Assembly: GCF_014803385.1 (NCBI RefSeq)
Contig: NZ_JACYFC010000005.1
Coordinates: forward strand, 62,001 to 126,000
Direction: 5' to 3'
Length of the DNA: 64,000 nt
From: Marinomonas colpomeniae
GTDB lineage: Bacteria > Pseudomonadota > Gammaproteobacteria > Pseudomonadales > Marinomonadaceae
Shown: in pieces, positions 52,726 through 64,000 of the stretch
Position numbering within the stretch: position 1 is the first letter of the stretch
How the letters are laid out: each line of letters starts with the position of its first letter
Program-made: the position numbers and the translations under genes
Notes under the pieces: model-generated
The model's database searches: none
The model's input: the letters and a program-made list of their open reading frames with translations, nothing else
What the model was told of the DNA's origin: nothing

Positions 52726-54168
52726 TTACGATGCTAAGCAAATAGCACGACCATGATTATGTGATTCTACTAATTCTTTATGCAAACTGCATATCGCTTT
52801 TTCATAGTCTTCTTCATCAACAACAAACTGCATATCAACCTGACGCATAGATTGGTGCATAGCCAATACGTTTACGCCTTGCTCTGCAATCGCCTTAACC
52901 GCTTTAGCAAGCATACCCGTTGTTTTCATGTCACTACCAATAGCCGACACGATTGCGACTTTACGCTGGGTGATTTCCGCATCTTCAAAGCGCTCGTGAA
53001 GCACTTTCATAACACGTTTTAATATTTTTAAGTTAATCGCTAAATAATGCGTAATCGTATTCGCATTAATATCTTTGGCAATAATATGAACATTAAATTG
53101 ATTCAATACCTTAAGAATACCAACATCGAATTTATCGATATCACCCGCCATGTCTTGGTCAAATAACTCAACAGCAAAAACGCCACGACAACCCGCAATG
53201 ATTTCAACACAAGGTGCATCACTCACGTAATCACCCGTAATTAGTGTGCCTGTATGTTCTGGCTCAAAGGTATTTTTTACTCGTAATGAAATACCGCTTT
53301 GACGTAACCCTTTTGCTGCTTTCGGATGAATTGCTTCCATACCAAGATTTGCTAATTGATCAGCTACATCATAGTTTGTACGGCCAATTGGAACAGCCTT
53401 ACTCTCACCCACTAAACGAGGGTCTGCACTGCTCAAGTGAAACTCTTTGTGGATAACGGCTTCATGAGCTTTAGTTAATACAGCAATACGACTAAATGTC
53501 ATCTCACTGTAACCGCGATCAAACGTCGACATCAAGCCAGTTTCACTGTGAGCATAGCCTGTTGTAATCGGTAGCTCTTTGCTTAAATCAATCCCTTTAA
53601 ACGCATCGAGAATTCGTTCATCAAGCGACATATGATTAGGACTATTCCAACCGGTCAAATCGACAAAGACAGCGTTTACACCATCGCGCTCTAAAAGATG
53701 TGCGGTATTCCATGCACTATGAGCTTCGCCAATACTGGCAAGCATTTCTCGTACGGTAGCGAGATGTTCGCTAATCGAGAAATGTCCGTGCTGACAAAGG
53801 CGGTGCAAGTCTTCTAAGCATTCTTGAGCTTCTTGTAGACGACTATTTAAAAATGCATTGGCTTTATCGCGCAGTTCACCAGCCATAAACAGGTTATTGT
53901 TAATTTTTAACATGGCATTACGCACATCGGTAAGTGCCGTAAACCAGTTATTTTGCTTACGTTCTTGTGCGAACAAAGCAAACACACCCGCATCACCCGT
54001 TTTTTTATGCTCGAGTAATTTATCTGTCATGCCAGCATAAGCTGAAACAACAAAAATACGCTGGTACATGTTGCCAGCTTGAGTCGGCTTAAAAATTATA
54101 TTATCTCTAACTGAACGATAGTCACTCATGGACGTACCGCCAATTTTTTCAACTGTATGTTGTCCCAT
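52726..54168 (-). CDS. ask: Ectoine-type aspartate kinase
   Basis: This is an aspartokinase of the Ask_Ect type that supplies aspartyl phosphate for ectoine synthesis; such enzymes are less feedback-inhibited. The 480-residue product has the N-terminal EKIGGTSM motif, a kinase domain and C-terminal ACT repeats. It follows ectC on the same strand but is cut off from it by a 20-bp perfect hairpin and a 260-bp gap, so it may have its own promoter. A GGAT element precedes the ATG. Confidence 0.9.
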   Translation of the reverse strand: MGQHTVEKIGGTSMSDYRSVRDNIIFKPTQAGNMYQRIFVVSAYAGMTDKLLEHKKTGDAGVFALFAQERKQNNWFTALTDVRNAMLKINNNLFMAGELRDKANAFLNSRLQEAQECLEDLHRLCQHGHFSISEHLATVREMLASIGEAHSAWNTAHLLERDGVNAVFVDLTGWNSPNHMSLDERILDAFKGIDLSKELPITTGYAHSETGLMSTFDRGYSEMTFSRIAVLTKAHEAVIHKEFHLSSADPRLVGESKAVPIGRTNYDVADQLANLGMEAIHPKAAKGLRQSGISLRVKNTFEPEHTGTLITGDYVSDAPCVEIIAGCRGVFAVELFDQDMAGDIDKFDVGILKVLNQFNVHIIAKDINANTITHYLAINLKILKRVMKVLHERFEDAEITQRKVAIVSAIGSDMKTTGMLAKAVKAIAEQGVNVLAMHQSMRQVDMQFVVDEEDYEKAICSLHKELVESHNHGRAICLAS

Positions 54169-54428: not shown

Positions 54429-54815
54429 TTATAAAATTTCGTAAGCACCTTCTAAATTATGTACTTCTTTACCCGTAATCGGCGGATTAAATACGCACGC
54501 TAACTTCAACTCTTTAAAGGCTCTTAGCGTATGTGCATCGTGTTTATCTAAAACATACACAACGCCAGGTTTAATCTGATGTTTCTCACCTGTTTCACGA
54601 CTTTCTACTTCACCTTCACCTGAGATGCAGTACACAGACTCAAGATGATTCTGATAATGCATATCAAAGTCTTTACCTTCATAAATTGTTGTAATATGGA
54701 AAGAAAAGCCCATATTATCTTCTTTTAACAACAAACGAGTACTTTCCCAATTACCATCTGGCGAAACTACTCGGCGATCAGTTTTTTCGCATTCTGCTAG
54801 GTCACGTGCAAACAT
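54429..54815 (-). CDS. ectC: L-ectoine synthase
   Basis: EctC closes N-gamma-acetyl-diaminobutyrate into ectoine. The 128-residue cupin has the likely iron ligands Glu59, Tyr87 and His95, matching the positions known in characterised EctC proteins. It follows ectB by 58 bp and has AGAGGAA before the ATG. It is the last gene of ectABC; no ectoine hydroxylase (ectD) follows. Confidence 0.95.
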
Positions 54816-54873: not shown

Positions 54874-56187
54874 TTAAACGGCAATATCGTAATTTTCGTC
54901 AAAATAGCTTTTAGCTTCCGGCATATCATCTTCTTTAGCACACACTTCACGAATGGCATTTTCTAAAATATCGATACCTTGTTTCAAATCTTCATCACTA
55001 ATGATTAGAGGACAAAGAAATTTCACTACTTGATCATCCGCACCTGAGGTTTCAATCATCAAACCGTTTTGAAAACATTTTTTGGTGATCTTATTTGCTA
55101 ATTCACCACTAACGCAGTTGATACCACGCATCATACCTCTGCCCTGAACCACAAAATTACCTTCACCGAACTCTTTAACAATCGCTTGTGTCCGCTGATG
55201 AATATATTCGCCTTTACGTTTAATTTCTTTCTCGAATGCGTCGTCTTTCCAATAGGTATCAATAGCAGCTTTTGCTGTTACAAAAGCAAGATTATTACCA
55301 CGGAAAGTACCGTTATGCTCACCAGGTTTCCACTCATCCAACTCTGGACGCATTAATACCACTGCAAATGGCAAACCGTAGCCGCTTAGAGATTTAGACA
55401 TAGTGATAATGTCTGGTGTTATAGCAGCGCCTTCAAAGCTAAAGAAAGTACCTGTGCGACCACAACCAGCTTGAATATCATCTAAAATCAATAACACACC
55501 ATGTTTTTTGCACACGGTATCAAGATTTTGTAACCAGCCAAAACTCGCTACATTGATTCCGCCTTCACCTTGAACTGTCTCTACAATCACAGCCGCTGGC
55601 ATATCGACACCACTACTAGAGTCAGATAACACCTTGTCTAAATATTCAGTAGTTTCTATGCCTTCTCCTAAATAACCATCAAATGGCACAGTAGATACAC
55701 CTGCACCTAGAGTAAGACCTGCTGCCCCACGGTGATGAGAGTTACCCGTTACAGATAAAGCACCTAAACTACAACCGTGGAAACCATTGGTAAAACTGAT
55801 AATATTTTCACGACCAGTAACATTACGAGCTAGTTTTAATGCCGCTTCTACCGCGTTTGTCCCTGTTGGCCCAGTAAACTGCATCATATATTCAAGGCCA
55901 CGAGGCTCTAAAATATGTTGTTTAAAAGCTTCTAAGAATTCACCTTTAGCCTTCGTATGTAAGTCCAAACCGTGTGTAATGCCGTCTTCTAATATGTATT
56001 CAATTAACTTTTCTTTAAACACTGGGTTGTTATGTCCGTAATTTAAAGTACCTGCACCCGCCAAAAAATCGAGGTATTTATTACCTTCTTGGTCAAATAA
56101 ATGAGCGCCTTCAGCACGATGAAAGACACGTGGAAAAGAACGGGCATAAGACTGTACTTCAGATTCGATTTCATCAAAAATTTTCAT
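54874..56187 (-). CDS. ectB: Diaminobutyrate-2-oxoglutarate transaminase
   Basis: EctB converts aspartate semialdehyde to L-2,4-diaminobutyrate, with glutamate as amino donor. The 437-residue PLP aminotransferase has the cofactor lysine Lys265 in [26 protein letters not shown], and GTFRGNN. A good AAAGGAAA element lies upstream. It is the second gene of the ectABC cluster. Confidence 0.96.
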
Positions 56188-56285: not shown

Positions 56286-56783
56286 TCAAAATGAGATTGG
56301 GCCAATTCTGACGAGATGTTCGGTATCGTGCTTGCCTTTGAAGTGCTCTTGTTTATCAAACATAACAGTCTCTTCCAAAGTCGATCCTAGCTGACCAGCA
56401 AGGCTTCGAAATAGAGCCCAGGAACCCAAATTAGACTCAGTAATACTGGTTTCTATGAAACGCACGCCAGAACAACGAGCACGTTTAAGCAATGAAGAAA
56501 GCATTTTTTTCGCGACCCCTTTACCACGTACTTTTTCGCTCACAGCGACCTGCCAAATAAATAATGTATCGATTGAATTAGGGAGGATATAACCCGACAC
56601 AAAACCTACTAATTGACCGTCATTTAAACTGGCAGTAATAGATGTTTCATCAAAATGACTAGTTTGAAGAAGATTACAGTAAGTCGAATTTGTATCCAGT
56701 GGAGGACATGATGCCACCAATTGATGCACAGCCATTCCGTCTATTGAGCTGGGGTTATTAAAAATAAATTCTTCTGCATTCAT
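56286..56783 (-). CDS. ectA: Diaminobutyrate acetyltransferase
   Basis: EctA acetylates diaminobutyrate with acetyl-CoA. The 165-residue GNAT protein carries the acetyl-CoA binding motif RGKGVAKK. Two in-frame ATGs exist, 56795 and 56783; I chose 56783 (MNAEEF) because of the weak GGA upstream, but the first could also be used. It is the first gene of the cluster, 98 bp before ectB, with a 130-base leader if the promoter at 56922-56950 is used. Confidence 0.92.
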   Translation of the reverse strand: MNAEEFIFNNPSSIDGMAVHQLVASCPPLDTNSTYCNLLQTSHFDETSITASLNDGQLVGFVSGYILPNSIDTLFIWQVAVSEKVRGKGVAKKMLSSLLKRARCSGVRFIETSITESNLGSWALFRSLAGQLGSTLEETVMFDKQEHFKGKHDTEHLVRIGPISF

Positions 56784-56910
56784 GATTATATCCATTAGAT
56801 AACAAAGTATTAAAAATCTGTATTTTTAATTGTCCATATTAAGAACATAAAAAAACCTCTGTTTTATAAAGAATAAAATAAAGGCATAAGGTAAAACGAA
56901 CAATTAATTT

Positions 56911-56973
56911 GATGTCTAATCATTATATCTAAAAGCATTATTCAATCCAATAATTTATTTAGATGTCTAATCA
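56911..56973. repeat. 12-bp direct repeats flanking the ectA promoter
   Basis: GATGTCTAATCA occurs at 56911-56922 and 56962-56973, with starts 51 bp apart (about five helical turns). The second copy forms a 5-2-5 palindrome TTAGA-tg-TCTAA with its flank. They bracket the predicted promoter, so they are candidate operators. Confidence 0.65.
56922..56950 (-). promoter_or_regulatory. Predicted ectABC promoter
   Basis: Reading the minus strand, TTGGAT (56950-56945), a 17-bp spacer and a perfect TATAAT (56927-56922) form a sigma-70-like promoter. The start site would be near 56914, giving a leader of about 130 bases. Confidence 0.6.
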
Positions 56974-57225: not shown

Positions 57226-58584
57226 ATGACTAATAAAACATCTATTCACGGCTCATGGGCGAGCCGCTGGATATTCATTTTAGCAGCAACAGGTTCTGCT
57301 GTTGGTTTAGGCAATATCTGGAAATTCCCTTATATTACTGGCGAGAACGGTGGTGGCGCATTTGTATTGGTTTACTTGGCCTGTATTTTACTTGTTGGTA
57401 TTCCAATTATGATGGCAGAAGTTTTTATTGGCCGCCGTGCTCGCAAAAATCCTATTCATGCATTAACTGACATAGCAGAAGAGTCAGGCGGATCTAAAGC
57501 CTGGGGGTTGATTGGTTTCATGGGAATGCTTTCAGGTGTCCTAATCTTCTCTTTCTATTCTGTTGTTGGCGGCTGGGTACTTCATTACATCAAGGTCATG
57601 CTAACTGGCGAGATGCTGGGAGTCAGTGCTGAACAAGCTGGCGCGACGTTTGACGTGCTTCTTGGCGACCCAAAAACACTATTGGGCTGGCACACACTTT
57701 TCAGCATCATGACTATTTCCGTTGTGGCCGGTGGTATCAATAAAGGTATCGAAACAGCCACTCGCATCATGATGCCTTCGTTGTTTGTATTGCTGCTTAT
57801 CTTGCTTGGTTACGCCATGTCTACCGATGGTTTCGCACAAGGCTGGGACTTCATGTTCCACGTTGACTTCGGTCAATTAACTTGGAATGCGACGCTTGTT
57901 GCACTAGGCCATTCTTTCTTTACCTTGTCATTAGGTATGGGAACGATAATGGCGTACGGTTCTTACATGACGAAGAAAGCATCTATTGGTAAAACTGTAT
58001 TAACTATCGGTGCACTGGATACACTTGTTGCCTTGGTTGCTGGCTTAGCTATTTTCCCAATCATATTCTCAAATGGATTGAACCCAGGTGCAGGTCCAGG
58101 CTTGATGTTTATTTCTTTGCCTGTTGCATTCGGTCAAATGCCACTTGGTCAACTGTTTGGTTCTTTGTTCTTCATCTTAGTGGGTGTTGCTGCATGGACT
58201 TCTGCCATTTCTTTGTTAGAGCCAACCGTTGCATTTTTGATCGAAAAATTCGAAATGAAACGTATCACAGCCTCGATAACATTAGGTGTTGTCGTATGGG
58301 GATTAGGCATTGCATGCCTAGGTTCATTCAGTTTCCTATCTGATGTGACTTTGTTTGGTAAAAATACGTTTGATTTCTTAGACTATATTACCGCTAACAT
58401 CATGTTGCCATTAGGCGGTATCTTGATTGCGCTGTTCGCAGGTTGGGTTGTAAAAGATAAGTTCGCACAGGACGAATTGCAGCTGTCTGACTCTATCTAC
58501 ACACTATGGAATATCTCAATGAAGTTCACAGCACCAATTGCCGTTGCTGTTGTTCTATACTTCTTGATCAATCCATTGACGTAA
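57226..58584 (+). CDS. Sodium-dependent NSS-family transporter
   Basis: A 452-residue symporter of the neurotransmitter:sodium family, with about 12 helices and the helix-1 motif AATGSAVGLGNIWKFPY. Bacterial members carry amino acids or similar solutes. I start at the ATG at 57226, preceded by TAGAGA; the frame opens further. It is divergent from ectA across 442 bp, so it could be osmotically controlled, but the substrate is unknown. Confidence 0.9.
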   Translation: MTNKTSIHGSWASRWIFILAATGSAVGLGNIWKFPYITGENGGGAFVLVYLACILLVGIPIMMAEVFIGRRARKNPIHALTDIAEESGGSKAWGLIGFMGMLSGVLIFSFYSVVGGWVLHYIKVMLTGEMLGVSAEQAGATFDVLLGDPKTLLGWHTLFSIMTISVVAGGINKGIETATRIMMPSLFVLLLILLGYAMSTDGFAQGWDFMFHVDFGQLTWNATLVALGHSFFTLSLGMGTIMAYGSYMTKKASIGKTVLTIGALDTLVALVAGLAIFPIIFSNGLNPGAGPGLMFISLPVAFGQMPLGQLFGSLFFILVGVAAWTSAISLLEPTVAFLIEKFEMKRITASITLGVVVWGLGIACLGSFSFLSDVTLFGKNTFDFLDYITANIMLPLGGILIALFAGWVVKDKFAQDELQLSDSIYTLWNISMKFTAPIAVAVVLYFLINPLT

Positions 58585-61183: not shown

Positions 61184-62161
61184 ATGCCATTATTTCATAC
61201 ACCAGATCAGCTAGAGCAAAAAATACCAGTTGGAATCAGCGCTTGTTTGTTAGGTGAAAATGTTCGCTTTAATGGTGGACACAGCCACTCAGACTACTGC
61301 GATAAAGTACTGACTGACTATTTTGACTATCAAAAATTCTGCCCAGAAGTGGCAGCAGGATTTGGGACACCTCGCCCAACCTTACGTTTAGAAGGCGATC
61401 CAAATGACCCAAGAATGGTATTCACTAAGCAAACAGACAAAAACGTCTCTGATGTTTTTATGTCCGCATCTGATGCTTACTTAGAAAAACTCTCTCACCT
61501 TGATGGCTATATCGTCATGAAGAACTCACCAAGCTGTGGATTAGAGAGAATTAAGGTGTACCAAGAAAACGGACATCCTCACATGCAAAGAAGCGCAGGT
61601 TTGTTCACCAAAGAATTACAGCGACGTTATCCATTATTGCCAATCGAAGAAGATGGACGTTTAAATGATCCAAAACTGAGAGAAAATTTCTTGTTACGTG
61701 TTTTTACGCATCATGATTTTCGCCACAGTGTTGGAGAATCAATAAAGATGAAAGATTTAATTGCTTTCCATAGCCGTTATAAATACATGGTGATGGCGCA
61801 CTCTCAGCCAATATATCGCCAGCTTGGTCGTTTACTTTCTGGCAATGATCCACGACCAGTGGCCGAACTAAGAGACGCGTACTTTGAGATATTAATGACA
61901 ACACTATCCAAACCAGCGCAACGTAAAAATCACTGTAATGTGCTCATGCATTTGATTGGATACCTAAAACATGCGGTCGATGTTTCAGTACGAAAAGACA
62001 TTATTAATGTGGTCGAGCAGTACCGTCGTGGCGAAGTGAATCTCGCCACTCCGATGACACTACTGCAACATTATTTAAAACATTACGGCAGTGAATACAT
62101 TAATCAGCAAAGCTATTTCGCTCCGTACCCAACGCCATTAGGTATTCGTAATACGGTTTAG
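61184..62161 (+). CDS. rudS: DUF523-DUF1722 protein, tRNA 4-thiouridine desulfidase-like
   Basis: A 325-residue protein with an N-terminal DUF523 (TudS-type) domain and a C-terminal DUF1722 (YbgA) domain. Cys21, Cys53 and Cys118 (SACLLG, CPEV, SPSCG) are the likely three [4Fe-4S] ligands. The same fusion has been described as RudS, which removes sulfur from 4-thiouridine in tRNA. This nucleoside absorbs near-UV, so its removal fits a light-response locus. GGAGA precedes the ATG and phrB follows 13 bp later. Confidence 0.82.
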   Translation: MPLFHTPDQLEQKIPVGISACLLGENVRFNGGHSHSDYCDKVLTDYFDYQKFCPEVAAGFGTPRPTLRLEGDPNDPRMVFTKQTDKNVSDVFMSASDAYLEKLSHLDGYIVMKNSPSCGLERIKVYQENGHPHMQRSAGLFTKELQRRYPLLPIEEDGRLNDPKLRENFLLRVFTHHDFRHSVGESIKMKDLIAFHSRYKYMVMAHSQPIYRQLGRLLSGNDPRPVAELRDAYFEILMTTLSKPAQRKNHCNVLMHLIGYLKHAVDVSVRKDIINVVEQYRRGEVNLATPMTLLQHYLKHYGSEYINQQSYFAPYPTPLGIRNTV

Positions 62162-63750: not shown

Positions 63751-64000
63751 ATGTCTGATCCACAGCACTTACACGACGTTTTAGTTCATCTACGACGCAT
63801 TATTCGAGCAACAGACCTACAATCAAAACGTGTTGTAAAAGCCTGCGGCTTAACCATTCCTCAAATTATGGTACTTAGATCCATTGAAGAACTTGGTGAT
63901 GTTACTGTGCGCCGTATTTCAGACAGCGTATCGTTAAGCCAAGCCACAGTAACAACTATCCTTAACCGCTTAGAAGACAGAAAATACGTAGAGCGCGTAA
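63751..64000 (+). CDS. MarR-family regulator (CosR/EctR-like), 3' end cut by window edge
   Basis: The visible 83 residues begin MSDPQHLHDV and contain a winged-helix segment (ISDSVSLSQATVTTILNRLE). The N-terminal LRRIIRATDLQSKR pattern resembles MarR proteins CosR/EctR that repress ectoine and compatible-solute genes. This is an inference from partial sequence. The gene runs past the window end. It is about 7 kb from ectA, with the photoprotection locus in between. Confidence 0.75.
   Translation, partial: MSDPQHLHDVLVHLRRIIRATDLQSKRVVKACGLTIPQIMVLRSIEELGDVTVRRISDSVSLSQATVTTILNRLEDRKYVERV

Follow-up and report, generated by a model that had tools for sequence, protein, structure and literature searches.

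Palindromic boxes at the ectABC promoter of Marinomonas colpomeniae and a candidate CosR/EctR-type regulator

The ect locus and its promoter

The stretch of DNA analysed here (the window; 64,000 nucleotides, positions 62,001 to 126,000 of contig NZ_JACYFC010000005.1 of Marinomonas colpomeniae) carries on its minus strand the ectoine genes ectA, ectB and ectC together with ask, and at its plus-strand end a gene for a MarR-family regulator. The genes and promoter features considered below are the following:

52726–54168, minus strand: ask, ectoine-type aspartate kinase (NF006614, above cutoff)
54429–54815, minus strand: ectC, ectoine synthase (NF009806, above cutoff)
54874–56187, minus strand: ectB, diaminobutyrate transaminase (TIGR02407, above cutoff)
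56286–56783, minus strand: ectA, diaminobutyrate acetyltransferase (TIGR02406, above cutoff)
56795–56806, minus strand: O3, operator-like box, TTTGTTATCTAA, 11 bp ahead of the ectA start codon
56908–56919, minus strand: O2, TTAGACATCAAA on the minus strand and TTTGATGTCTAA on the plus strand (TTTGA-TG-TCTAA), covering the predicted transcription start near 56915
56922–56927, minus strand: −10 element TATAAT, column conservation averaging 0.92 over the 30 aligned genus loci
56944–56950, minus strand: weak −35 element, read as TTGGAT (17-bp spacer) or as TGGATT (16-bp spacer)
56959–56970, minus strand: O1, distal box, a palindrome, TTAGACATCTAA on the minus strand and TTAGATGTCTAA on the plus strand (TTAGA-TG-TCTAA)
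63751–64000, plus strand: MarR-family regulator, candidate CosR/EctR-type repressor (PF01047, above cutoff; 163 aa, extending beyond the window end)

For ectA, a start at 56795 was set aside in favour of 56783, where the ATG is conserved in the alignment. Divergent from ectA lies a gene of the sodium:neurotransmitter symporter family (57226–58584), which is found beside ectA in 30/30 aligned Marinomonas loci.

A preliminary description of this DNA had singled out two identical repeats, GATGTCTAATCA, at 56911 and 56962, and both are exact (56911–56922 and 56962–56973); the 3.7-Mb genome contains no copy beyond these two at the ectoine promoter. The repeat as reported is off-register by 3 bp, the conserved unit being a 12-bp palindrome whose half-sites stand 2 bp apart. 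In the corrected register, most of the repeat copy at 56962–56973 is contained in O1, while O2 follows immediately after TATAAT in the ectABC promoter. Two sites had been recognised and both are present, but a third box near the start codon, O3, had been missed. Comparison with the operator consensus of Vibrio CosR, TTTGA-NN-TCTAA, as quoted in PMC8070244, revealed that O2 matches the quoted form exactly and that O1 is one base off. The genome-wide box pattern TTWGANNTCWAA was found at 30 places, most of them inside genes, versus 27 with a reversed control, so the pattern by itself is uninformative.

The core promoter is recognisable by its perfect TATAAT, which was found as described, on the minus strand at 56927–56922. 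A TTGGAT does stand at the described 17-bp spacing, but it is a weak −35 element with only three of the six consensus bases, and the consensus promoter scanner did not include the TTGGAT promoter of ectA in its list. In the genus alignment, the −35-region element conserved in the relatives reads TGGAC(A/T), and its spacer is 16 bp long. Given the position of TATAAT, transcription is expected to start near 56915, inside O2; the proximal site, previously taken to abut the start, thus in fact covers the expected +1. In the transcribed, minus-strand direction the order is O1, −35, TATAAT, O2, leader, O3 and ectA, with predicted centres near −50 (O1), +2 (O2) and +115 (O3) relative to the start. 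Since ect promoters called from sequence alone have been described as unreliable (PMC5924519), we treat the ectA start site as a prediction throughout. The scanner also proposed a promoter at 56813–56785, over O3, which was rejected; its TATAAT is lost in relatives, and the match count of the region is no higher than that of shuffles.

Conservation of the boxes in Marinomonas and across the order

A strong ectA match was identified in 41 of 50 genus genomes, and 30 loci were aligned. Mean column conservation reached approximately 1.00 over O2, 0.92 over both O1 and the −10 element and 0.91 over O3, against 0.55 for the leader and 0.51 for the DNA bordering O1 on its upstream side. The start-to-start distance between O1 and O2 took three values in the 31 loci with both boxes, 51 bp (13 loci), 50 bp (14) and 49 bp (4), and no other. 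When 84,980 species genomes were scanned with spacings of 36–66 bp allowed, 21 records emerged, 20 of which were Marinomonas, all at 49–51 bp; the remaining record was unrelated and had a spacing of 38 bp. The distance between O2 and O3 is far looser, ranging from about 85 to 138 bp. Relatives keep the class of palindrome and the 49–51-bp spacing upstream of ectA, but not the letter-for-letter identity of the two repeats, which is confined to the M. colpomeniae genome and a few relatives. O1 itself differs in sequence between loci, most relatives having TTAGTTCTCTAA, and this exact identity is therefore incidental.

The narrow spacing might reflect dimers bound at O1 and O2 that touch across the promoter and bend the DNA between them, giving cooperative or looping repression. 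An arrangement of this kind had been proposed in the preliminary description, which placed the two repeats five helical turns apart on the same face of the helix. The constancy of 49–51 bp in all paired loci, its restriction to this range among the Marinomonas records of the worldwide scan and the much greater variation of the O2–O3 distance are in line with that proposal. The distance of 51 bp is correct for M. colpomeniae, but it amounts to 4.86 turns and makes the same-face placement only approximate; across the relatives, 49–51 bp corresponds to 4.67–4.86 turns of 10.5 bp, which falls short of a whole number and sets the faces roughly 50 to 120 degrees apart. Moreover, each site is locked to its own place relative to the promoter, so that the spacing can be explained without dimer contact, and O1 is missing from a sister clade, which argues that the O1–O2 pair is not obligatory. 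Overall, contact between the two dimers appears unlikely to account for the arrangement.

The sister clade, a second group within Marinomonas (L049, L050, L051, L053, L055 and L056), retains O2 and O3 and lacks O1. Its start-site box reads TTAGACATGTAA (TTAGACGTGTAA in L053), and its near-start box reads TTAGAGATGTAA (TTAGAGGTGTAA in L049). Because this clade keeps both boxes in the absence of O1, we infer that O2 and O3 are probably the older pair and that O1 was probably gained later, in the main clade.

Most genus copies of O3 are imperfect palindromes (TTTGTTTTCTAA; TTTGATTTCTAA also occurs in relatives), and its position 11 bp ahead of the start codon places the box in leader DNA of a kind that is often under constraint; O3 might consequently be a translation-initiation signal or another leader feature that happens to resemble the box. 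Against such an origin, the full palindrome is restored at the O3 position in some relatives (TTTGAGATCAAA and TTTGATGTCAAA), and a near-start box recurs far beyond the genus. When 60 ectA upstream regions from other families of the order were searched, with a 95% shuffle threshold set for each region, 44 contained a box above threshold versus 3 expected, and 35 contained one between −60 and −12, again versus 3 expected. These genomes constitute an independent test, since the weight matrix was built from Marinomonas sites alone, although a few of the near-start hits have low scores. A mere leader feature is accordingly an improbable explanation for O3. None of the 60 order-level loci carried a 50-bp box pair, the distances there being 15–37 bp or at least 64 bp.

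One other family of the order (L112, L113, L117, L119, L127 and L140) carries a MarR gene directly upstream of ectA and in the same direction, which suggests a MarR–ectABC operon. No box was seen directly before ectA in these loci, and in at least these six of the box-less regions the promoter probably lies ahead of the MarR gene, given its position and orientation.

The MarR-family candidate and further box-bearing genes

The regulator gene at 63751 is followed by proX and proW and usually lies about 7 kb from ectA in Marinomonas. Marinomonas genomes in which its product has a match at E ≤ 1e-20 contain one such match each. The gene is also retained in genus genomes without ectA, and ectABC cannot therefore be its only target. 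In several families of the order, homologues with 47–55% identity adjoin ectA. Vibrio homologues are about 50% identical, the recognition-helix region being very similar. One of these Vibrio homologues (50%) adjoins a BCCT gene 62% identical to that of M. colpomeniae. On a conjugative plasmid of Vibrio nigripulchritudo (L091:402-8474), ectABC-ask, proVWX and a 49%-identical MarR homologue were found in one cluster, a possible mobile salt-tolerance island.

In an unrooted tree of the 63751 protein and its homologues, this protein shares a well-supported branch with other, mostly proX-linked proteins, beside a separate one that contains the Vibrio and ect-adjacent proteins. Because the branches separate in this way, the protein is best assigned to the wider CosR/EctR group and not to the orthologs of CosR or of EctR1. 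NCBIfam yielded no equivalog above cutoff for it, and the PDB contained nothing closer than distant MarR relatives.

Further support for a common regulator came from a second compatible-solute gene. A box, TTTGACATCTAA, which matches the CosR consensus exactly, occurs some 400 bp ahead of a gene for a BCCT betaine-type transporter (L044:1501-1512, genome C8:39198). Of 30 genus loci, 28 have the exact box and 1 more has it with a single base changed; it stands 290–460 bp upstream, the intervening length being variable. The corresponding pair of targets, a BCCT gene and ectABC-asp, is directly repressed by CosR in Vibrio (PMC7876524). The earlier view that the sites look like ectABC repressor sites is thus borne out by the fit to the CosR consensus, by their conservation and by their recurrence at the betaine-transporter gene.

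Two further observations concern other sequences in the genome. Just upstream of proX, after the MarR gene, three weaker box-like sequences occur in a row (L048:1092-1141); they are weak and variable, with no clear conservation among relatives, and for this reason we left them out as support. An intergenic consensus box, TTTGACGTCTAA (L046:1501-1512, genome C8:312772), lies about 70 bp upstream of a gene that matches both a VTT domain and a pyridine-nucleotide oxidoreductase, and may be another target or a chance occurrence.

MarR proteins are many and several bind similar palindromes, and the 63751 protein stands outside the branch formed by the Vibrio and ect-adjacent proteins; the boxes might accordingly be read by a different MarR-type protein or by another regulator. 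At E ≤ 1e-20, however, no Marinomonas genome had a further protein of the group, and both the close resemblance of the recognition-helix region to that of the Vibrio homologues and the recurrence of the box at the BCCT gene speak against a different reader, which we consider quite unlikely. The protein at 63751, already suspected in the preliminary description, turns out to be the only close CosR/EctR relative in the genus and to be linked to compatible-solute transport genes, and it is most likely the reader of the boxes. Assignment of O1 to the divergent symporter gene at 57226 rather than to ectA is very unlikely, for although that gene is a constant neighbour of ectA and a palindromic O1 could be used in both directions, O1 lies about 256 bp from the symporter start codon across poorly conserved DNA (0.51), its distance to the ectA promoter is kept within 2 bp, and the second clade keeps the symporter gene without O1.

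Proposed repression and relation to known switches

Taken together, we propose that O1 and O2, with O3 at the ectA start codon, are operators for a CosR/EctR-type MarR repressor, most likely the 63751 protein, which would act by occlusion at O2 with help from O1 and O3; judging from the sequence evidence, we assign this reading a probability of about 0.8. At low salt, a repressor dimer on O2 would cover the transcription start and exclude RNA polymerase. A second dimer on O1, over the DNA upstream of the −35 element, and a third on O3, in the early transcribed region, may strengthen or grade the repression. High salt would then loosen repressor binding and open ectABC-ask. Salt as the signal is itself a supposition of this model: in Methylomicrobium, salt induction persists after the loss of EctR (PMC5924519), and hence the repressor may not be the main or sole salt sensor. 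According to the same 2018 review, the signal sensed by EctR and CosR is still unknown.

The types of operator and regulator are already known, and what appears to be new is the operator layout, mostly a rearrangement of a known switch. The closest parallel is CosR, a MarR-family protein of Vibrio cholerae and V. parahaemolyticus with the operator consensus TTTGA-NN-TCTAA (PMC8070244). As CosR represses ectABC-asp and the BCCT gene of Vibrio at low salt (PMC7876524), so the Marinomonas boxes precede ectABC and BCCT genes. Marinomonas differs in having three boxes and a fixed 49–51-bp pair, although the Vibrio site was compared by its consensus only, and in that the 63751 protein belongs to a branch apart, whose members are mostly linked to proX.

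EctR1 of Methylomicrobium alcaliphilum 20Z is likewise a MarR-type repressor of ectABC-ask, like the regulator proposed for Marinomonas. Its operator, an A/T-rich pseudo-palindrome in which 2 bp separate the two half-sites and which overlaps the −10 element, is similar to the Marinomonas boxes. In that system one site, at the −10 element, has been reported and ectR adjoins the ect genes, whereas Marinomonas has three boxes and a regulator gene at a distance of about 7 kb; EctR1 and the 63751 protein are likened here by description. A looser analogy in mode of action, also by description only, is offered by BusR of Lactococcus lactis, which represses a compatible-solute gene set with a proposed response to ionic strength; BusR governs uptake and not ectoine synthesis, and we claim no membership of its family. 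In the literature consulted, outside the main CosR and EctR1 papers, we found no account of three sites arranged in this way, with one operator at the start codon and a 49–51-bp pair specific to the genus.

A more detailed scenario, which we put forward tentatively, is that of a three-operator array in which O2 and O3 would be the older pair, with O3-type sites found order-wide. The operator near −50 would be a later gain of the main clade and would serve to tune a graded response to salt, perhaps through dimer contact or looping. The array would be read by a proXW-linked relative of CosR and EctR in a genus without an adjacent ectR.

The three-box promoter, together with relatives that lack one box or shift the spacing by 1–2 bp, provides a ready set of variants for relating operator number and spacing to the salt response, and the conserved box motif is usable for predicting the regulon in marine bacteria.
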